In this document: positions 26,656-63,091 of the stretch, one piece after another
Layout of the letters: each line of letters starts with the position of its first letter
Position numbering within the stretch: position 1 is the stretch's first letter
Source of the DNA: Leptospirales bacterium
GTDB taxonomy: Bacteria; Spirochaetota; Leptospiria; Leptospirales; Leptospiraceae
Direction: 5' to 3'
DNA length: 64,000 bases
NCBI GenBank assembly: GCA_013297885.1
Contig: JAAFIR010000003.1
Location: 62,001-126,000, forward strand
The notes under the pieces: generated by a model
The model's database searches: none
Told to the model about the DNA's origin: nothing
The model's input: the letters and a program-made list of their open reading frames with translations, nothing else
Made by a program: the position numbers and the translations under genes

Positions 26656-27788
26656 ATACTAAAGAAAAAATTATTGTAGCTATGAGTGGTGGAGTTGATT
26701 CTGCAGTAACTGCAGGGCTTTTAATTGAACAAGGTTATGAAGTTATTGGAATCAATCTTAGAACATGGGAATATGAAGCTCCTTCATGTGATACAACAAA
26801 AAAATCATGTTGTTCTCCAGAAGATATTCGTGATGCAAGAGACGTGGGTTTAGCATTTAATATTCCTTTTTATGTTTTTAAAATGGAAAAAATTTTTGGT
26901 GAAAAAGTTATAGATCGATTTATTCATGATTATGAAAACGGACTCACACCAAATCCTTGTGTCGAGTGTAATACATTTGTGAAATTTGGTTCACTTTTTG
27001 AAAAAGCAAAACTTTTAGGAATCGAAAAAATTGCTACTGGTCATTATGCTAAAGTTCATTTAACAGACGATGGAAGATATGCTGTTCAGAATGGATCTGA
27101 TATAAAAAAAAATCAATCATATTATTTATATGGATTAAGCCAAGATAATTTAAAAAACACATTATTTCCATTAGGCAATATGGAAAAAAAAGTAGTTAGA
27201 GAACATGCTCATCGATTTGGATTAACAGTTGCAGATAAAAAAGAATCACAAGAAATTTGTTTTATTCCTGAAAATGATTATAGAAAATTTTTAAAGAAAA
27301 AAAATATCAATTTCACTCCCGGCTTTTTTAAATTAAGATCTGGTGCAATAGTTGGAAAACATTCTGGAAAAGAAAATTTTACAATTGGTCAAAGAAAAGG
27401 ACTTGGAATTGCTTGGAAAGAACCTCTTTATGTTTTATCAATTCAAGACGATGGAACTGTTTTACTTGGTGAAGAAACTGAAACATTTGTAGAAAGTTTT
27501 AAAGTAAAAGATTTAACTTATCAAGGGATTGTTCCTTTAAAAGAAAATGAAGAACTTGAATGTAGAGTCCAAATCCGATATAGACATACTCCAGTAAAAT
27601 GTTTAATTCGATTAAAAAATTCTGAGTTAATTATAAAACTTTTAGAAAATGCAACTTCAGTTGCTCCCGGTCAATCAGCAGTTTTTTTTCCGCTTAACAA
27701 TGATTATGTGCTACTTGGAGGAATCATTGAAAAAAATAGCATCATACATAAAAAATATTCGATAGAAAAAGTTCTAGAACATATATGA
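26652..27788 (+). CDS. mnmA: tRNA-specific 2-thiouridylase
   Basis: Adds sulfur at U34 of tRNA-Lys, -Glu and -Gln. The PP-loop is AMSGGVDSAV, the first catalytic Cys is in NPCVECN and the second in SQEICFIP. 378 aa is normal. The ATG overlaps the upstream stop and its own stop overlaps the next start, both by 4 bases, so four genes are translationally linked from 24714 to 30031. Confidence 0.96.
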   Translation: MNTKEKIIVAMSGGVDSAVTAGLLIEQGYEVIGINLRTWEYEAPSCDTTKKSCCSPEDIRDARDVGLAFNIPFYVFKMEKIFGEKVIDRFIHDYENGLTPNPCVECNTFVKFGSLFEKAKLLGIEKIATGHYAKVHLTDDGRYAVQNGSDIKKNQSYYLYGLSQDNLKNTLFPLGNMEKKVVREHAHRFGLTVADKKESQEICFIPENDYRKFLKKKNINFTPGFFKLRSGAIVGKHSGKENFTIGQRKGLGIAWKEPLYVLSIQDDGTVLLGEETETFVESFKVKDLTYQGIVPLKENEELECRVQIRYRHTPVKCLIRLKNSELIIKLLENATSVAPGQSAVFFPLNNDYVLLGGIIEKNSIIHKKYSIEKVLEHI

Positions 27789-30031
27789 TTAGATATAAAG
27801 GAAAAACTCTACTGATTGTTGGTGGAGGTTTATTACAAATTCCAATTATTGAAACTGCAAAATCTATGGGTTTAGTTGTAGTTGTTGGGGATATGAATCC
27901 TGATTCACCAGGTTTTAAAATAGCAGACAAAAAGATTCTCATGTCAACTAAAGACATCGAAGGAATGGTTCGTGAAGCAAAAAAATTTGTTCAAGTAGAT
28001 CCAATTCACGCTGTAATAACAGCTGGAACTGATGCAAGTATGACAGTTGCAGCAGTTGCAAATGCTCTTGGGCTTCTTGGACTAAGATATGTTGATGCAG
28101 AAGCTTGTTCTAACAAAGTGAAGATGCGTAAAAGGCTAAAAGAACATAATGTTCCAATTCCAAATTTTGCTGAAGTGTGGAGTATTGCAGATGCAAGGGA
28201 TGCTTTATCTTATTTAAAATTTCCACTTGTGATGAAACCCTCAGACAATATGGGTGCTAGAGGTGTGATTAAAGTAAACAATTTAGAAGAACTTCACCAA
28301 GCTTTTAAACACTCTAAAAAATTTTCTCCAACTGGTGAAATGATTTTAGAAGAATATATGAAAGGTCCTGAACTTTCAGTAGATGCAATTTCCTATTTTG
28401 GTAAAATCAAAATGACAGGAATTGCAGATAGAATTATTGAAAGAGAGCCTTTTTTTATTGAAACAGGACATACAATGCCAAGCCAACTTTCCAAAAAAAT
28501 TTTGGATGAAGTAGAAGATGTAATGAAACAAGGTATGAAAGCTCTTGGAATTAATTTAGGTGTGGGAAAAGGTGATATTAAAGTTACTGATACCGGTGTA
28601 AAAGTTGGAGAAATTGCTGCAAGGCTTTCAGGTGGTTTTATGTCTGCCTACACTTATCCTTATTCAACAGGAGTAAATTTAAACAAAGCTGCAATTCAAA
28701 TCGCATTTGGTGATGAACCTGAAGAGTTAATAGAAACTAAAAATTTAGTTTCTATTGAAAGAGCCATTATTGCAAGTCCTGGTAAAATTGTTTCAATTAC
28801 TGGGGTTGATGAAGCTTCTGAAATTGATTCAGTAAATCATGTTTTTATGGGGAGTAAAGTCGGAGATATAATTAACGAGCCCACAAATAATATAGAAAAG
28901 TCTGGTCATGTGATTATAACTTCTGAAAGTTTAGAAAAAGCAGAAAAAATTTTTGAAGAAGTAAAAAAAACAATTATTATTGAATCAGATTCTTATTATT
29001 CTTTAACAGAAAAAATTATTAACCAAAATGCTAGGTTAAAATTTGGGAAAGATATTTGTTGGGTTTGTAAAGTATGTGATGGAACAGATTGTGCTTCTGG
29101 AGTTCCTGGTATGGGTGGAATTGGTAAAATGGAAACTTTTAAAGACAATACTATCGCATTACGAGAGTATTCTATTTTACCAAGATACATTCGTGAATCT
29201 GTTACACCAAATACAAAATATATTTTTTTTGAAAAGGAACTCTCTCATCCAATCTTAGCAGCTCCTATGACCGGTGCAGTCACAAATATGAATAATGCAA
29301 TGGATGAATACCAATACTCTTTAACCGTTTTAAAAGGATTTAAAGAATCAGGTTCTATAGCATTTCTTGGTGATGGTGCAACTATTGATAAATATTTAAT
29401 TATTCTAAAAGCGATGGATGAAGTCGGCGGATTTGGTGTACTGATATGTAAACCAAGATCTGACTTTGGTTTATTAAAAGAAAGATTTGAAGAGTCTGAA
29501 CGTCGTTCAGTTTTTGCACTTGGTATGGATATCGATGCATTTAATTTTAAAACTCTTGTTCAAAAAAATCAAAATGCAAATACTCGCACTATTTCTGAAC
29601 TTTCTAAAATTAGAAAATTAACTAAACTTCCCTTTATTTTAAAAGGTATAATGACTTTAGAAGACGCAATTAGTGCTTATGAAGCTGGTGCTGATGCAAT
29701 TGTAGTTTCAAACCACGGCGGTAGAGTTTTGGATGAAATGCCAGGAACTGCAAGAGTTTTACCTGAAATTGCAGAAAAACTAAAAGGGAAAATTCCTGTT
29801 ATCGTAGATGGAGGAATTCGTTCAGGAATGGATGTTTTTAAAATGTTATCACTTGGTGCTAATTCAGTTTTAATTGGAAGACCAATTGCAATCTCTGCTG
29901 TTGGTGGAGAAGTTGCTGGAGTAAAATTTTTGTTAAATCAATTCAAAGACGAATTAATTCAAACTATGAATATAACTGGAGCAAAAAGTTTAAGCAATAT
30001 TACTTATGACTTAATTCTGAGAAAAAAATAG
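27785..30031 (+). CDS. ATP-grasp / FMN-dependent alpha-hydroxy-acid oxidoreductase fusion
   Basis: 748 aa in two enzymes. Residues 1 to about 400 are an ATP-grasp ligase like carbamoyl-phosphate synthase or PurK (LLIVGGGLLQIPIIETAKSM, then KPSDNMGARGV, then EIAARLSGGFMS). From about 418 a Cys-rich entry (CWVCKVCDGTDCASG) leads to an FMN-binding TIM barrel of the lactate-oxidase family (APMTGAV, then VVSNHGGRVLD with the catalytic His, then VDGGIRSGMDVFKML). A coupled ligation and oxidation is suggested but the substrate is unknown. The MnmA gene immediately upstream does not explain it. Confidence 0.85.
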   Translation: MIRYKGKTLLIVGGGLLQIPIIETAKSMGLVVVVGDMNPDSPGFKIADKKILMSTKDIEGMVREAKKFVQVDPIHAVITAGTDASMTVAAVANALGLLGLRYVDAEACSNKVKMRKRLKEHNVPIPNFAEVWSIADARDALSYLKFPLVMKPSDNMGARGVIKVNNLEELHQAFKHSKKFSPTGEMILEEYMKGPELSVDAISYFGKIKMTGIADRIIEREPFFIETGHTMPSQLSKKILDEVEDVMKQGMKALGINLGVGKGDIKVTDTGVKVGEIAARLSGGFMSAYTYPYSTGVNLNKAAIQIAFGDEPEELIETKNLVSIERAIIASPGKIVSITGVDEASEIDSVNHVFMGSKVGDIINEPTNNIEKSGHVIITSESLEKAEKIFEEVKKTIIIESDSYYSLTEKIINQNARLKFGKDICWVCKVCDGTDCASGVPGMGGIGKMETFKDNTIALREYSILPRYIRESVTPNTKYIFFEKELSHPILAAPMTGAVTNMNNAMDEYQYSLTVLKGFKESGSIAFLGDGATIDKYLIILKAMDEVGGFGVLICKPRSDFGLLKERFEESERRSVFALGMDIDAFNFKTLVQKNQNANTRTISELSKIRKLTKLPFILKGIMTLEDAISAYEAGADAIVVSNHGGRVLDEMPGTARVLPEIAEKLKGKIPVIVDGGIRSGMDVFKMLSLGANSVLIGRPIAISAVGGEVAGVKFLLNQFKDELIQTMNITGAKSLSNITYDLILRKK

Positions 30032-30080: not shown

Positions 30081-30350
30081 ATGGAAAAAGAAATTAAAGA
30101 CGCTTTAAACTTTGTAATTGGAGCTGCAACTAGTTTAAAAACTGAAACTGAAAAATTTGCTACAAATTTTGAAGCTGAATTCAAAAAATTAGCTGAAAAA
30201 GGTTCTGCTGAAAATTCAGAAATAGCATTAAACATTAGAAAATATTCTGATGAAGCTTTAAAAGAAATTGAAAAAGTTTTAGGTCAAGCAAATTCAAAAT
30301 TTGAGGAAATCAAAACTCAAGTTAAATCAGCTACTGAAAAAAAAGCATAA
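30081..30350 (+). CDS. Phasin-like small helical protein
   Basis: An 89-aa, strongly charged, almost entirely helical protein with heptad-like spacing (ALNFVIGAATSLKTETEKFA, then IRKYSDEALKEIEKVLGQAN, then FEEIKTQVKSATEKK). This is the character of phasins and related granule- or membrane-coating proteins. A GAGG ribosome site precedes the ATG and a TTGACA at 30035-30040 may be its -35, though the -10 is poor. A clear terminator follows. Confidence 0.6.
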   Translation: MEKEIKDALNFVIGAATSLKTETEKFATNFEAEFKKLAEKGSAENSEIALNIRKYSDEALKEIEKVLGQANSKFEEIKTQVKSATEKKA

Positions 30351-30358
30351 ATTTTTCT

Positions 30359-30397
30359 GAGTTTGGTTCTTTAATTAAAGTTCCAAACTCATTTTAT
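30359..30397 (+). terminator. Rho-independent terminator after the phasin-like gene
   Basis: GAGTTTGG at 30359-30366 pairs with CCAAACTC at 30383-30390; the 16 bases between also pair (CTTTAATTAAAG). ATTTTATTCTTT follows. It separates the convergent phasin-like and YkgJ-like genes. Confidence 0.75.
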
Positions 30398-31086
30398 TCT
30401 TTATTAAACATTTTTTTTATTTCAAAATCGATTTTTTCTCTGCTTTCTACTTCAAAATAATCAATTAATTCTTTTTTATAATTTATTTTTTCTTTAACTT
30501 CCATTTCCAATTCAAATGAAGTAAAATTATTTTTTTTTGTAATTAGATATTCCATTATTAAAATTTCAAAAAAGTTTTTTTGTTTTAAATTTTTTAAATC
30601 AATTTGTATTTCATTTTGGATAAATAAATTCTGAATTTTACTAACAAATATATGATTAGAAGCGATTGATGAATATTCATAATAATCCAAATTCATTTCA
30701 GATAATAATACTTCTAACCAATTTCTTTCTTCTTTATTTTTACAATCATATACAGAACAAATGGAAGCTCCATAAAAAGAATAATTTTGGCTATTTTTAT
30801 CTCCTGTAGAACTAGGATGAATCATACAGCCAATTTTTTTTTCTTCAATAAATCCTAAAAATGGACAATTATAAGTATAAACGTCTTTTTTTGGAAATTC
30901 TAATTCTAGTTCTTCAAATTTTTCTCTGAATTCAATAACAGTTTTTTTCTTGGAGTAAATTACATTTAATTTAAAATCATTTGTTCTAGTTACTAAAATT
31001 TTATGGATTTGTTTTTTATCAACATCCAAGTTAAATATACCACAACAAGCACCACAGGAAGTTTTTTTATTTTGGCAAAGACTCAT
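30394..31086 (-). CDS. YkgJ-type zinc/iron-chelating Cys-cluster protein
   Basis: 230 aa. The start TSCGACCGIFNLDV, then YNCPFLGF, GCMIHP and SICSVYDC reproduce the Cys pattern of the YkgJ/UPF0153 metal-chelating family. Two short Cys-free helical segments end the protein. It is the last gene of the sigma-CHAT operon, its ATG overlapping the CHAT stop by 4 bases, so it is tightly coupled. A metal-dependent partner or target of the protease is possible but is inference. Confidence 0.75.
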   Translation of the reverse strand: MSLCQNKKTSCGACCGIFNLDVDKKQIHKILVTRTNDFKLNVIYSKKKTVIEFREKFEELELEFPKKDVYTYNCPFLGFIEEKKIGCMIHPSSTGDKNSQNYSFYGASICSVYDCKNKEERNWLEVLLSEMNLDYYEYSSIASNHIFVSKIQNLFIQNEIQIDLKNLKQKNFFEILIMEYLITKKNNFTSFELEMEVKEKINYKKELIDYFEVESREKIDFEIKKMFNKE

Positions 31087-32867
31087 TCTAATAAAAAATT
31101 TAAATAATAATTTAAACTTAAGTTTTCTTTATTAGAAAAATAATCTAATGAAATTGGATTTAAATTTAGAATTGAATTTTTAGAAGTATTTAACAAAATA
31201 TACTCTGAAAGTTTATCTAAAGAATTATACCTAGTTTGGTTTGAATTTTTTTTTAGGATTTCAGGTTTAATTCCAGTTAAAATAATAAATTCGTTTTTAT
31301 CTTTAGGGTAATATATAAATTGAAATTTTTCAATCTCAGAAAGTTCAACAAGTAGATTTTCAAAATAATATTCTGAAGTGACTAAATATCCTTCTAAACT
31401 CTCTTCTGAAAGTTCTGCTTTATCAAATTTATCAAACCAGTTTATAATTTTAAAAATAAATTCTCGATTACTAAAGAACACATTAGTCATAGATTCTATA
31501 AACATCGATAGCTGTAATTTTTTGAAATCAGTAATACAATGAAAAATTAAATCCCAAACTCCTCTCAAAGTTTCTACTTTTTCATTAACAAGATGTAAAT
31601 TCAAATCTCTTCCTTTATGTTCATTTAAAATTATATAACTCATAAAAAAGCTAAAACTTTGAAATGAATAAACAAGAGCTTTTAATCTTTCATAAATAGA
31701 AATATCTAAACTAAGTTCCATAAATTTTGAATAAGTATATGCAATTGGAGTTGGGTAGTTTTTTTTAATTTCTTCAGGATCAATAATTTTTGTTTTTGAA
31801 TAGGCTTGTTTAGTTAAAATAGAGTCTGATGGATTACCATACTGAGAATAATTTGCCCACGTTAAATCTAATGTACCATAATTTTTTCTAGCAAATTCTC
31901 TTGCGATGCTTAATGACTCACCTATTGTTTTATCACTAAATAAACTTAAATAAAATCTAATTGTAAAATCAATTGTTTTATCATTATCAACAACTTCCCA
32001 TTTTGTTCCAATAAAATTTTTAATTCCTGATAACAAAAATGAACTTGCAAAATCATGAATAAGATCTGCATTATCCATTTTTAAATTTGCAGATTTTGAA
32101 GAATTACAAGAATTACTAAAAATTAAATTTGTACTAAAAGCAGAATTTTTTATTTCTCTTGCTTTTAAAACTTTTTCTTCAGATAACAACCAACCATTTT
32201 CTAAAGGATCATCTGAAAAAAATAAATGTCCTGCATAATGAATGATATGTTTGTCTCTAATTAACGAAAGAAGTTTTAATTTAGTGATTTGTTTCCCAGC
32301 GATAAATTCAATATGAAGTTTTGAAGGAGAAATTTTTTCTTTGAGAGTCCTAAATATTAGCTCTCCTTCTTTTTGTGCCCATTCTAAATCCTCAGTCGGG
32401 TCAGCTATGATTAACATTTTTAAATGATTTGATGTATTTAAAGATGTATTTGCTTTAGTACCTTTTACCGTTCTACCAATATAAAACCTATCAGATAAAA
32501 AACATTCACCATCATAAAGAAGTTCCCATGGAATATCTGAAAGTGAATTATCTATACTGAAATGTAAAAATTTTTCATTAGTGGATTTTAATTTTTTAGA
32601 AATTGACTCAGGAAAAAACTGTTCATAAAATGTCTCACTAATATTTTTTAAGTCTTGTAGTATTTCAGGTTTAATTTCAAAATTTTTATTTTGATTTCCT
32701 GAAATTTGATTAGATAATTTTGATAAATTAATGATTTCTTTAACATATTCTGAAATTAAATCAGAATCAATTGCAGATTGAATATTTGCTTCTGAATAAT
32801 ATTGCCCAGAATTTAAAATGTTAAAAACATTTACATTGCCGACACGATCAATTAAAATATCAATCAT
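31083..32867 (-). CDS. CHAT-domain (caspase-like) protease
   Basis: 594 aa. The CHAT peptidase fills about residues 85-350: SDIPWELLYDG, then HIIHYAGH with the catalytic His (His214 most likely), then IFSNSCNSSK with the nucleophile Cys254, then KWEVVDNDKTIDF and AREFARKNYG. The catalytic dyad is intact. Unlike many CHAT proteins it lacks TPR repeats; the C-terminal 240 residues are helical and unrecognised, perhaps a sensor. It is third in the sigma-CHAT operon, 9 bases after its upstream neighbour. Confidence 0.85.
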   Translation of the reverse strand: MIDILIDRVGNVNVFNILNSGQYYSEANIQSAIDSDLISEYVKEIINLSKLSNQISGNQNKNFEIKPEILQDLKNISETFYEQFFPESISKKLKSTNEKFLHFSIDNSLSDIPWELLYDGECFLSDRFYIGRTVKGTKANTSLNTSNHLKMLIIADPTEDLEWAQKEGELIFRTLKEKISPSKLHIEFIAGKQITKLKLLSLIRDKHIIHYAGHLFFSDDPLENGWLLSEEKVLKAREIKNSAFSTNLIFSNSCNSSKSANLKMDNADLIHDFASSFLLSGIKNFIGTKWEVVDNDKTIDFTIRFYLSLFSDKTIGESLSIAREFARKNYGTLDLTWANYSQYGNPSDSILTKQAYSKTKIIDPEEIKKNYPTPIAYTYSKFMELSLDISIYERLKALVYSFQSFSFFMSYIILNEHKGRDLNLHLVNEKVETLRGVWDLIFHCITDFKKLQLSMFIESMTNVFFSNREFIFKIINWFDKFDKAELSEESLEGYLVTSEYYFENLLVELSEIEKFQFIYYPKDKNEFIILTGIKPEILKKNSNQTRYNSLDKLSEYILLNTSKNSILNLNPISLDYFSNKENLSLNYYLNFLLE

Positions 32868-32876
32868 GTCGTTAAA

Positions 32877-33548
32877 TTATTCTGAAAGTAAGTTCAAGTC
32901 AAATCTTTTTGAGTTTGATTTTCCAATTAACTCAATATTGTATTTTCCAATTCCAAGTCCTGAAAAAGAAATCTGTCCTTCAAGATCAAAGCTTTTTGAA
33001 TAAATAAAACGATTATCTTTTTTTAAAATCACTTGGTCAAATTTTGGTTTTTCTAGTTCTGCTAGTTTTAAACTTAAATACATTTCTTTTTCATTTTCAA
33101 GGAGAAATTGGTATGATATACCAGAACTTCCATTTTCCTCTAAAACTAAAACTTCATTTTTTGATGAAACATTGGTATGTCTCACTGAAACTGAAGGTGT
33201 TAGAACTTCATTTAAAATTGAGTTTTCAAAAATAGATCCAAAATACTTTATTCCTTCGTTACCTATTTTTACAAAAATTGAATTTTGTGGTGTTGATGAA
33301 AAACTCTCAGATTGAACATAATTTTTTAAATACAATGGCAATTCTAGATTAAATTTTGAAAATAGGGGAAGGTTTGCTTTATGAATATCCATTGCTTCTA
33401 ATTCTGAAGAATCTTGCAATATTAAAGTTTTTAAATAGGATTTGCTGAGTGATTGAATTAAAAAATGAACAGAAGCTTCATTTTTTACATTTTCATGAAA
33501 ATTTTCTTCACTAAGTTTAAATTCTGCATCAAAAAATTTGTGATTCAT
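32877..33548 (-). CDS. Protein of unknown function between sigma factor and CHAT protease
   Basis: 223 aa, no signal peptide and no membrane helix. The N-terminal 90 residues are mostly helical. The C-terminal part (IFVKIGNEGIKYF onward) is beta-rich and ends IGKYNIELIGKSNSKRFDL, like an immunoglobulin-type or carboxypeptidase-regulatory sandwich. I recognise no family. Its place between the sigma factor and the protease makes it the natural candidate for an anti-sigma factor or protease substrate; this is inference. Confidence 0.7.
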   Translation of the reverse strand: MNHKFFDAEFKLSEENFHENVKNEASVHFLIQSLSKSYLKTLILQDSSELEAMDIHKANLPLFSKFNLELPLYLKNYVQSESFSSTPQNSIFVKIGNEGIKYFGSIFENSILNEVLTPSVSVRHTNVSSKNEVLVLEENGSSGISYQFLLENEKEMYLSLKLAELEKPKFDQVILKKDNRFIYSKSFDLEGQISFSGLGIGKYNIELIGKSNSKRFDLNLLSE

Positions 33549-33584
33549 ATTAACCCTCTAATCTTTTGACGAGTAAAGGTTAAA

Positions 33585-34487
33585 CTATATTTCAAAATCT
33601 AGGAATTTTTTTTGAATTTTTTCAATAATTCTTTGCAGCGAAATGCTTATATTATTCTCATGGACATCCAAAAGTTTAGCAATAATTTTGTATGGTGTTT
33701 TAGAAATCAAGTTCCCTTTTTGTTTTTTATCAATTAGTTTTTTTCTTTGTTCCAACTTTTTTTCAATCGCGATTTTTGTTTTATTAATATTTGGTAGATT
33801 ATCTTGAAATTCCTGCATTGGTTCTTTTTTCATTTTTTCTTGTAGCCTAATTATACTCATATAAATTGCAGAAATTTTGTCTTCTAATTCAATATTATGA
33901 ATTTCTTTTTCACTAAGTTCATCTCTAATCTGACTGATTTCAATTACAATTTCTGATTTTGAAATTTTTCTTTTATCAGCTATATATTCTATTTCAGCAT
34001 TACTTAAATTTAAATAAAAAATATACACTGTTTTAAATAAAACTCTTTGATCAATTTTTAAATCATCCAAAATTTCATTAAACACATCTGAAGCACGATG
34101 AGCTTCTTCCATTTTCTCTGGTTTAGTATCAATTTCAGCTTCAACAGTGGAATATTCTTCACCATCAGAATTGATTTTATAACTAGCAACTGTTTTTAGT
34201 TCTTTTTTATTTCTTTGCCAATCAATTAGTAGGTTTCTTAAAACAGTGAACAACCAAGTTTTAAAACCAGCTTTAGCAACAAAAGTTTGAAACCTTTTTC
34301 CTGTTTTTAATCTTTCAAAAGCATAAATAAAAAACTCAGATGCATCATCTTCATCAAGATGAAAGACTCTGATTGGAAAATTGTAAATATCTGTAGAATA
34401 AATCTCAAAAAACTTTTTTAAGGCTTCTGAATTACCTTTTGCACAATCTTGGATAAGCGAAAATATTTCTTCATTAGATAAATTCAT
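33585..34487 (-). CDS. ECF-like sigma-70 family RNA polymerase sigma factor
   Basis: 300 aa. Region 2 is at about 20-105: DDASEFFIYAFERL, then FKTWLFTVLRNLLIDWQRNKK, the promoter-melting and -10 recognition helix. A long charged linker (about 105-255) follows, then a region-4-like HTH (TPYKIIAKLLDVHENNISISLQRIIEKIQ). The linker is longer than in a standard 180-190-aa ECF factor. It is the first gene of the operon with CHAT and divergent from an M23 peptidase gene; only 52 bases separate the two starts. Confidence 0.82.
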   Translation of the reverse strand: MNLSNEEIFSLIQDCAKGNSEALKKFFEIYSTDIYNFPIRVFHLDEDDASEFFIYAFERLKTGKRFQTFVAKAGFKTWLFTVLRNLLIDWQRNKKELKTVASYKINSDGEEYSTVEAEIDTKPEKMEEAHRASDVFNEILDDLKIDQRVLFKTVYIFYLNLSNAEIEYIADKRKISKSEIVIEISQIRDELSEKEIHNIELEDKISAIYMSIIRLQEKMKKEPMQEFQDNLPNINKTKIAIEKKLEQRKKLIDKKQKGNLISKTPYKIIAKLLDVHENNISISLQRIIEKIQKKFLDFEI

Positions 34488-34539: not shown

Positions 34540-35436
34540 ATGAAATATTTTATTTTATTACTTACTTTTTTTAATTCTAATCACTTTACTGAATCCTCTA
34601 CGCCAGAATTCATCTGGGCAATTGATACTGCCAAAATAGAACAAAAGTTATCTTCTTTATTTGGTGAGTCTAGAGGAGATCATTTTCATAATGGAGTAGA
34701 TATTTCTTCAGATAATGAAAAAATTTTATCTATTGCTGAAGGAGAAGTAATATATTCTCGATATAAATCTGATAATCCTTTTGAAAATGAACATGGTAGT
34801 GGAAATTCAGTTTGGATCAAACATAAAGATAAAATTTATTCTGCATATTTCCATTTAAAAGATGGTAGAGAATCAAAATTAGCCTCTACAAATCTTGTTA
34901 AACAATCTGATGTTGTGGGTAAATCTGGTAATTCTGGACATTCGAGTGGTTCCCATTTACATTTTATTACAATGAAAGATAAAAAAATAATTGATCCATT
35001 AAGTATTTTGCCAAAGGTTATTGATTCAACAAAACCACAAGTTAATAAATTGATTTTAACAATTGGTAAAAGCAAAACTTATATTAAAGATGGGGATAAT
35101 TTTAATAACTCAAGCGATTTTCCAATTTCAGTAGAAATTTTTGATGCAGGTGAAAAAAAATCTCAAAGAAGAGGAATTAAGGAATTAGAAATTTATTTTA
35201 ATAAAAAATTATATAAAAAAGCAAGTTTTAATGAATTAGTATTGGAACAAGGAAAATGGAAAACAGAATCAGGACAAAGTTTTGATGAACTTTATTTTGA
35301 AAATGAATATTATATCGGAAACCTTCATTTACTCTCTGGACCAAACACAATTGAGATTAGTGTAAAAGATTTTAGCTTAAATGAAACTAAAAAATCTTTT
35401 GAGTTCCATGTAAACAAAATCAAAAGAAAAGAATAA
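34540..35436 (+). CDS. Exported M23 (LytM-type) metallopeptidase
   Basis: 298 aa with a signal-peptide-like start (MKYFILLLTFFNSNHFTES). The zinc site is complete: HFHNGVDIS (H-x3-D) and GHSSGSHLHF (H-x-H). The C-terminal 120 residues look like beta-sandwich. It should cut peptidoglycan cross-links or act as an activator of an amidase. Divergent from the sigma factor. Confidence 0.88.
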   Translation: MKYFILLLTFFNSNHFTESSTPEFIWAIDTAKIEQKLSSLFGESRGDHFHNGVDISSDNEKILSIAEGEVIYSRYKSDNPFENEHGSGNSVWIKHKDKIYSAYFHLKDGRESKLASTNLVKQSDVVGKSGNSGHSSGSHLHFITMKDKKIIDPLSILPKVIDSTKPQVNKLILTIGKSKTYIKDGDNFNNSSDFPISVEIFDAGEKKSQRRGIKELEIYFNKKLYKKASFNELVLEQGKWKTESGQSFDELYFENEYYIGNLHLLSGPNTIEISVKDFSLNETKKSFEFHVNKIKRKE

Positions 35437-61165: not shown

Positions 61166-63091
61166 ATGAAAGGAATTATAAGAATCCAAGCATCTTCTCC
61201 TGAGCTTAAAGTTGGGAATATTGAATTTAATTGTTTAGAAATTATTAAAACGTTAGAATTTGCTTCTCAAAACCAAGTTGATATTGTTTTATTTCCAGAA
61301 TTGTCATTAACTTCATATAGCTTAGCAGATCTGTTCTATGAGGAAAAAATTCACTATGAATCTATTCAAGCTTTATTAAAAATTTCGTTAATAACAAAAC
61401 AACTCCAAATTTCCACAATTATTGGTTTACCAATTTTTATCGACGGGAAAATTTTTAATGTTGCTTCATTTATTTCAAATGGAAAAATTCTTGGCATGGT
61501 TCCAAAAACTTATCTTCCAAACACAAATGAGTTTTATGAAGAAAGATGGTTTGCTTCTGAAAGAAATAGAATACTAGAAGAAATTATTATTGGTACAGAA
61601 AAAATTCCTTTTGGAGCGGATTTAATTTTTTCTGAAAAGAATTTAAATTTAAAAATTGGAATAGAAATTTGTGAAGATTTATGGGTAATTACTCCTCCAA
61701 GTAACGACTTGTCAATTGCAGGAGCAAATTTAATTTTTAATCCATCAGCAAGTCCAGAAATTATTGGAAAATTTGAATATAGAAACGAACTTGTTCGGCA
61801 ACAATCTGCAAGATTAATTTCTGGTTATGTTTATGCCTCTTCAGGTCCAAACGAATCAACAACAGATTTAGTTTATTCAGGTCATTCTATGATTTATGAA
61901 AATGGAAGTTTATTAGCAGAATCAAAAAGATTTAATTTAGAATCTGAATCTATTTTTTCAGATATAGATATTGATAAACTTAATCAGGATAGACTAAAAA
62001 ACTCGAGTTATAAAAACTCTTTTTCTCAAAAAAAATTTAGAAGGATTGAATTTGAATTAATTCAAAATAAAAAGAAAAACTTTTATTTAAAATTGAGTAA
62101 CACTCCTTTTGTCCCAAAAGATTTATCTCTTAGGGAAAAAGTTTCAGATGAAATTATTCAAATTCAAAGTACCGCTTTGGCAAAAAGATTAAAACATACA
62201 AACTTAAAAAAAATAGTTATTGGGGTTTCTGGGGGATTAGATTCAACTCTTGCATTACTTGTATGTGTTTTGGCTTTTGAAAAATTAAATTTAGATAAAA
62301 AAGGAATTCTTGCAATTACAATGCCAGGGCTTGGTACTAGTTCTAGAACAAAAAAAAATGCTATTGAATTAATAGAACAACTCGGTTTAAGTTTTAAAGA
62401 AATTTCAATACATGATTCTGTAATGCAACATTTTAAAGATATTGAACAAGATGAAAATCTTCATGATATAACTTTTGAAAATTCTCAAGCTAGAGAAAGA
62501 ACCCAAATCCTAATGGATATGGCAAATAAAATAAATGGCTTAGTTATTGGAACTGGTGATATGAGTGAGTTAGCACTTGGTTGGTGTACATATTCTGGAG
62601 ATCATATTTCTATGTATGCAGTTAATGTGGGAATACCAAAAACTTTAGTCAAATACTTAGTTGAGTATTTTGCTTTAATTAAATACAAAGATAAAATTTC
62701 AGAAACTTTAAAGGATATAATCGCAACTCCTGTATCACCTGAATTAATACCACCAAAAGATGGTAAAATTTCTCAAATCACAGAGGATCATGTTGGTCCA
62801 TATATTTTACATGATTTTTTTATGTATTATATGTTAAGATATAGGTTTAGTCCAACTAAAATTTTTGAACTTGCAGAAATTGCTTTTAAAGATTCATATG
62901 ATCGAGAAACAATTTTAAAATGGTTAAAAGTATTTTATTCTAGATTTTTTTCACAAGCATTTAAAAGATCTTGTTTACCAGATGGACCCAAAATTGGATC
63001 TGTTGCTGTTTCACCAAGAGGAGATCTCAGAATGCCATCAGATGTTTCAGCAACTTTATGGCTTACTGAGATTGATCATCTAACCATTTAG
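61166..63091 (+). CDS. nadE: Glutamine-dependent NAD+ synthetase
   Basis: 641 aa, two domains. The N-terminal nitrilase-type glutaminase has its triad in FPELSLTSY (Glu), VPKTYLPN (Lys) and [10 protein letters not shown] (Cys). The C-terminal synthetase has the PP-loop [13 protein letters not shown] and [19 protein letters not shown]. It makes NAD from nicotinate adenine dinucleotide and glutamine. Its 3' end overlaps convergent ubiX by 29 bases. Confidence 0.95.

Follow-up and report, generated by a model that had tools for sequence, protein, structure and literature searches.

In the Craspase system, a CHAT protease cuts Csx30, the inhibitor of the sigma factor CASP-sigma (PMC10028731). DdvA of Myxococcus xanthus is the anti-sigma factor of DdvS, an extracytoplasmic function (ECF) sigma factor (PMC4374960), and in group ECF54 genes for CHAT, subtilase, and carboxypeptidase proteins lie near the ECF sigma gene, for which proteolytic control has been proposed (PMC8999054). 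Here we describe a four-gene operon in a 64,000-nucleotide stretch (the window; positions 62,001 to 126,000 of contig JAAFIR010000003.1, assembly GCA_013297885.1) from a Leptospirales bacterium. Its source genome is 4.6 Mb and GC-poor, and its named relatives are Leptospiraceae and Leptospirales metagenome-assembled genomes, for example UBA2033 and Turneriella. The operon encodes an ECF-type sigma factor, a protein of 223 amino acids (aa) that is very likely its anti-sigma factor, a CHAT protease, and a Cys-cluster protein. We tentatively propose that this is a CRISPR-free chromosomal switch, core in the class that contains Leptospira, in which CHAT would cleave the soluble anti-sigma factor and free the sigma factor for surface lipoproteins and secreted proteins.

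The features discussed are as follows:
33585 to 34487, minus strand: 300-aa sigma factor of ECF type, member of the LIC_10225 family (TIGR02937, PDB profile, class-wide alignment)
33567 to 33571, minus strand: CGTCA, -10-like element of an ECF-type promoter between the sigma and putative anti-sigma genes (conserved across the class)
32877 to 33548, minus strand: putative soluble anti-sigma factor, 223 aa (adjacency, zinc-binding anti-sigma motif in relatives, weak RsiW match)
31083 to 32867, minus strand: CHAT caspase-like protease, 594 aa (PF12770, dyad, Foldseek)
30394 to 31086, minus strand: YkgJ-like Cys-cluster protein, 230 aa (conserved cysteines, coupling to CHAT in two families)
34540 to 35436, plus strand: divergent M23 peptidase gene, outside the operon (PF01551)

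An initial annotation had placed four leftward open reading frames between 30394 and 34487; all are present on the minus strand, separated from the sigma gene to the Cys-cluster gene by 36, 9, and -4 bases, the start of the last overlapping the CHAT stop.

Like Craspase (Csx29, Csx30, and CASP-sigma), the locus combines a CHAT protein, an ECF sigma factor, and a sigma-binding inhibitor, here a putative one. It differs in that its CHAT has no detected TPR region and that the genes form a core set instead of a defence locus. No Cas7-11, CRISPR RNA, or other Cas gene lies in the operon and none was recognised among its neighbours, while neither Foldseek nor profile searches matched the 223-aa protein to Csx30, leaving a functional analogy only. 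Since Cas7-11 and a Csx30 homologue are both lacking, the operon is not a member of the Craspase systems. The DdvS-DdvA pair likewise joins an ECF sigma factor to an anti-sigma partner, one whose solved structure resembles the window CHAT; DdvA, however, is a single transmembrane protein, whereas the anti-sigma factor and CHAT would here be two apparently soluble proteins. With ECF54 the locus shares a CHAT gene in a conserved ECF sigma context, a likeness of gene neighbourhood. That group was described without an anti-sigma factor, in contrast to the putative one found here, its listed model member is actinobacterial, and LIC_10225, the Leptospira interrogans relative of the window sigma factor, is listed as unclassified.

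The sigma factor and its putative anti-sigma factor

The sigma factor scored 113.5 bits against TIGR02937 (sigma70-ECF; cut-off 42.9), which bears out its earlier sigma-70-family label, and a profile search of PDB sequences returned SigW as the top match (E 1.4e-9); single Pfam domains scored under their cut-offs. The protein is unusually long. A class-wide alignment revealed a charged, probably coiled-coil insert of roughly 80-100 aa between the opening part of region 4 and the last helix-turn-helix. By sequence, the protein is an ECF sigma factor with a non-canonical insert. It is 50% identical to WP_001054050.1 of L. interrogans. This is LIC_10225, which is 301 aa long and is listed among the unclassified ECF factors in a 2025 review whose section on it names no anti-sigma factor, promoter, or protease (PMC12655853). 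A lic10225 transposon mutant exists (PMC5100919). The M23 gene is a conserved neighbour of the sigma gene in two families (18 related loci), a possible link to the envelope. A glmS-like gene, whose product combines a glutamine amidotransferase domain with an SIS domain, directly precedes the sigma gene in several genomes of families f3-f5 (L051, L053, L054, L056, L103).

The 223-aa protein, of unknown family in the initial annotation, matched no Pfam or NCBIfam family. Its relatives are more informative. An Hx3CxxC motif with an upstream Cys is the pattern of zinc-binding anti-sigma (ZAS) domains, and Hx3CxxC, mostly with this Cys, was found within the first 50 residues of eight of the nine relatives outside the order; with shuffled sequences, at most one protein showed it. 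When the family profile was searched against 177,635 PDB sequences, the top match was RsiW, in the zinc-motif region, at an E value of 0.42 that is not significant alone; SigW, the partner of RsiW, tops the sigma profile search. One homologous pair of a sigma gene and a 223-like gene, with overlapping reading frames, occurs in another spirochaete class. Its second member, the distant 223-like homologue L131, begins like an anti-sigma domain, with a weak zf-HC2 match (E 0.027). The AlphaFold2 model of the window protein has a helical N-terminal part, predicted with modest confidence, and a confidently predicted C-terminal beta domain of immunoglobulin (Ig)-like type, which matched Ig-like folds.

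The initial annotation had cast this protein as the possible holder of the sigma factor. The ZAS motif in relatives, the weak RsiW match, the class-wide adjacency, and the conserved promoter described below all favour that role, and we regard the 223-aa protein as very likely the anti-sigma factor of the adjoining sigma factor. The resemblance to SigW-RsiW and other ZAS systems lies in the Hx3CxxC motif of class relatives and in the weak RsiW profile match there. In contrast to those systems, the 223-aa protein appears to be soluble, its Ig-like C-terminal domain taking the place of the membrane segment, and the zinc ligands have gone from several lineages.

Two results speak against the assignment. 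The window's own protein and those of the Turneriella genus have lost the zinc ligands, and two sister genera retain CxxC alone. In addition, Pfam zf-HC2 and other curated anti-sigma profiles matched no member of the class, nor did a zf-HC2 search of eight genomes match the 223-aa gene. Because the curated zf-HC2 profiles miss class members, we infer the anti-sigma role, albeit strongly. A PDB search with the N-terminal zinc region alone gave no match, and a full profile built on ZAS-containing proteins only was discarded, its PDB matches being due to chance (for example, FGF2).

Two modules joined in one family

The distribution of the four genes indicates that the operon is composed of two old modules, one with the sigma and 223-aa genes (module A) and one with the CHAT and Cys-cluster genes (module B). 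CHAT was present in 44 of the 48 class genomes examined, including every one of the 30 with completeness of at least 90% and low contamination, and the 223-aa family in 46; outside the class, a sample of 296 genomes from the phylum contained this family in a single case. From their near-universal presence, both are core genes of the class, and module A as a whole is core and single-copy across the class Leptospirae. In 35 of 41 genomes, drawn from several families, the sigma and 223-aa genes adjoin. The window's genome has no other CHAT gene. Module B is seen in the window's family, with CHAT beside the Cys-cluster gene, and at five of the six sister-family loci examined; in this sister family pdxJ is often found upstream. 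In f2 genomes, pdxJ directly precedes CHAT (L065 by Pfam; L118 and L120-L122 by similar sequence).

The two modules are joined in one operon only in the window's family, where the arrangement spans five genera, with a shortened form in L. interrogans. Seven family genomes carry all four genes in the same order (one contig begins inside the sigma gene), and an eighth has three genes on a broken contig. The spacings at these loci are 36-49, 2-9, and -4 to 11 bases, and CHAT identity to the window across the five genera is 45-59%. Since order and spacing of all four genes agree in seven genomes, the arrangement is not due to chance. The initial annotation had staked its reading on the four genes occurring together elsewhere; they do so in the window's family, but in sister families the modules are unlinked, although complete genomes nearly always carry both.

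The L. interrogans record NZ_CP092665.1 contains dnaE, a divergent M23 gene, sigma, a homologue of the 223-aa protein (242 aa, 39% identity), and CHAT. This LIC_10225 locus thus shares with the window the sigma family and the order of M23, sigma, 223-aa homologue, and CHAT, but its CHAT is cut to 403 aa and no Cys-cluster gene was found downstream of it. The shortened CHAT gene (L132:8814-10025) is absent from the feature table used for the record, which is labelled a plasmid yet bears dnaE, gatB, and thiD.

A conserved promoter and a candidate regulon

ECF promoters usually have CGTC as their -10 core. Between the sigma and 223-aa genes, 26 of 27 class genomes contained [AC]GTC[AT], compared with a mean of 5.0 and a maximum of 10 in 2000 shuffles, and 23 contained the stricter CGTC[AT] (shuffles: mean 1.8, maximum 7). 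In families f3-f5, TGTTGTA or TGTCGTA is located about 15-16 bases upstream of the CGTC element. In Turneriella-type genomes, where the 223-aa gene lies away from the sigma gene, it is nonetheless preceded by TTGTCGTAAA...CGTC; this persistence where the genes are unlinked indicates that the element belongs to the 223-aa gene and not to the 3' end of the sigma gene. The window copy is CGTCA at 33571-33567 and, if active, it would drive the anti-sigma, CHAT, and Cys-cluster genes jointly. Judging from these sequences, the sigma factor probably drives the 223-aa gene from the CGTC promoter.

The initial annotation had named separate promoters between the genes as a finding that would undo a single regulatory unit. 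A conserved promoter does lie between the sigma and anti-sigma genes, but its ECF-type form points to self-control by this sigma factor and not to an unrelated unit. No conserved promoter was seen by eye before the sigma gene itself. Two other candidates were set aside: a plain sigma-70 promoter scan found sites no commoner than in shuffles (28 vs 30.2), and the inverted repeat TTAACC(C)/GGGTTAA at 33549-33584, in the start region of the 223-aa gene (gap hairpin -8.3 kcal/mol), is not common to relatives.

A search of eight genomes with TGTYGTA-N16-CGTCW gave 18 matches, 12 of them intergenic and just upstream of a same-strand gene; the 223-aa gene accounts for five of these and other genes for seven. 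When reversed, the pattern also matched 18 times, with a single promoter-placed match (Fisher p 3e-4, or 0.004 when the 223-aa genes are excluded). As the total does not exceed the control, placement alone is informative, and the numbers are small and give no ranking by strength. Used as a plain count, the TGTTGTA pattern with spacers of 15-17 performed no better than its reversed control and was dropped. All seven other candidate targets begin with a signal-like hydrophobic stretch, four of them with a lipobox-like Cys. Two Turneriella-type genomes (L155, L160) hold related lipoprotein-like genes of 490-503 aa with TGTCGTA-N16-CGTC upstream.

The exported appearance of the seven targets, together with the M23 and glmS-like neighbours of the sigma gene, suggests an envelope role, and the sigma circuit probably controls envelope or exported proteins. 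The anti-sigma assignment, the promoter, and the candidate regulon go beyond the initial annotation. LIC_10225, an unclassified ECF factor of Leptospira, would gain a probable anti-sigma factor, a promoter motif, a candidate regulon of exported proteins, and, within its own family, a partner in the form of a caspase-like protease.

The CHAT protease and its possible place in the circuit

CHAT scored 94.4 bits against PF12770 (cut-off 24), and His214 and Cys254 are invariant across 17 orthologues. The fold and the His/Cys dyad that mark CHAT proteases are both present in the sequence, in agreement with the earlier label of a CHAT protein with an intact dyad. A protease region (about 1-355) is followed by a separate helical/beta C-terminal region (about 360-594). 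The best Foldseek matches of the model were Csx29/TPR-CHAT (top: 8eex_B, E 2.9e-9), separase, and the anti-sigma factor DdvA (8rw5 and 8rot, E about 3e-5). An in-frame TAG between the protease and C-terminal regions of CHAT in the sister-family genome G014, together with the 403-aa CHAT of L. interrogans, places a domain border near residue 355-400. In G014 (f2; L041, L063), the 223-aa gene also appears frameshifted while sigma is intact, which could reflect joint decay or sequencing errors. The YkgJ-like label of the Cys-cluster protein stands in part: the protein scored 16.4 bits against PF03692, under the cut-off of 23, but its orthologues keep the cysteine pattern SCGACCG, NCPFLG, GCMIHP, and SICxxYxCxxK.

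In the model that we favour, the 223-aa protein would keep the sigma factor bound in the cytoplasm, as its motif, adjacency, and promoter suggest. Freed sigma would transcribe the anti-sigma gene from the internal CGTC-type promoter, creating negative feedback. In the window's family it would also raise CHAT and its Cys-cluster partner, since these sit within the same unit. CHAT, on an intracellular signal, might cut the anti-sigma factor and release sigma, as a CRISPR-free analogue of Csx29, Csx30, and CASP-sigma. The model is built on gene order, conservation, the intact dyad, the zinc motif of relatives, and promoter conservation. Sigma binding, the direction of control, cleavage, and the signal are the parts that we infer.

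The levels of likelihood attached to these claims are our judgements. That CHAT acts within the sigma/anti-sigma circuit is evenly poised. The whole model, an ECF pair for exported proteins with a feedback promoter and with CHAT cutting the anti-sigma factor, falls slightly short of an even prospect, and cleavage of the 223-aa protein by CHAT, proposed by analogy, is a tentative suggestion. Of the protease-controlled transcription switch put forward by the initial annotation, the sigma holder, the intact dyad, and the Craspase/separase-like fold are favourable, but the window's family alone has CHAT joined to the sigma pair. Should CHAT cut the anti-sigma factor, Craspase would exemplify a more general bacterial mode of sigma switching through intracellular proteolysis.

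Three observations count against a role of CHAT in the circuit. In sister families, the distance between CHAT and the sigma pair is about 108 kb (G011), 174 kb (G015), and 1.5 Mb (G014). Inspection by eye found no evident CGTC promoter before these unlinked CHAT genes. Moreover, the L. interrogans CHAT is 57% identical over residues 1-384 and is without the C-terminal region. Among CHAT relatives on plasmids of other bacteria, the four regions opened showed peptidase, SIR2, AAA, or TerB genes as neighbours and no annotated sigma factor.

CHAT and the Cys-cluster protein could instead be outputs of the sigma factor, acting as stress effectors that cut other proteins, while the anti-sigma factor is freed by a different signal, one acting through its Ig-like domain for instance. 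This would fit the conserved promoter upstream of the anti-sigma gene, which reads into CHAT in the window's family, and the CHAT gene working apart from sigma in other families. We nevertheless consider it unlikely: CHAT gives no sign of being in the regulon in all other families, and the anti-sigma and CHAT genes, a mere 2-9 bases apart, are so closely coupled as to suggest a joint stoichiometry. It is quite unlikely that the joining of the modules in one family was a neutral rearrangement, with CHAT and the Cys-cluster protein unrelated to the circuit and merely co-transcribed. The modules are indeed unlinked at the examined loci of other class families, but five genera and, in part, Leptospira retain their order and spacing at 45-60% identity.

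The Foldseek matches to DdvA, the known anti-sigma factor of an ECF sigma factor (PMC4374960), raise the very unlikely alternative that CHAT is a non-proteolytic sensor which, like a DdvA split in two, makes up the anti-sigma complex jointly with the 223-aa protein. The invariance of His and Cys over the whole class argues for catalysis, and the match may reflect the shared CHAT fold alone. To a Craspase-like phage-defence system that lost its CRISPR part we give almost no credence, although CHAT, sigma binder, and ECF sigma are the same logical parts (PMC10028731). The locus is core, single-copy, and kept across the class, no PADLOC family matched, and the predicted regulon comprises exported proteins. 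The phage-defence flavour of the initial annotation is not retained, as core genes without a match in the defence library make such a role unlikely.

Downstream of the operon and convergent with it, an 89-aa phasin-like helical protein is encoded at 30081-30350 and is a neighbour in several relatives too. By eye, the 748-aa reading frame at 27785-30031 combines an ATP-grasp-like N-terminal part with a C-terminal part resembling flavin mononucleotide-dependent oxidoreductases.

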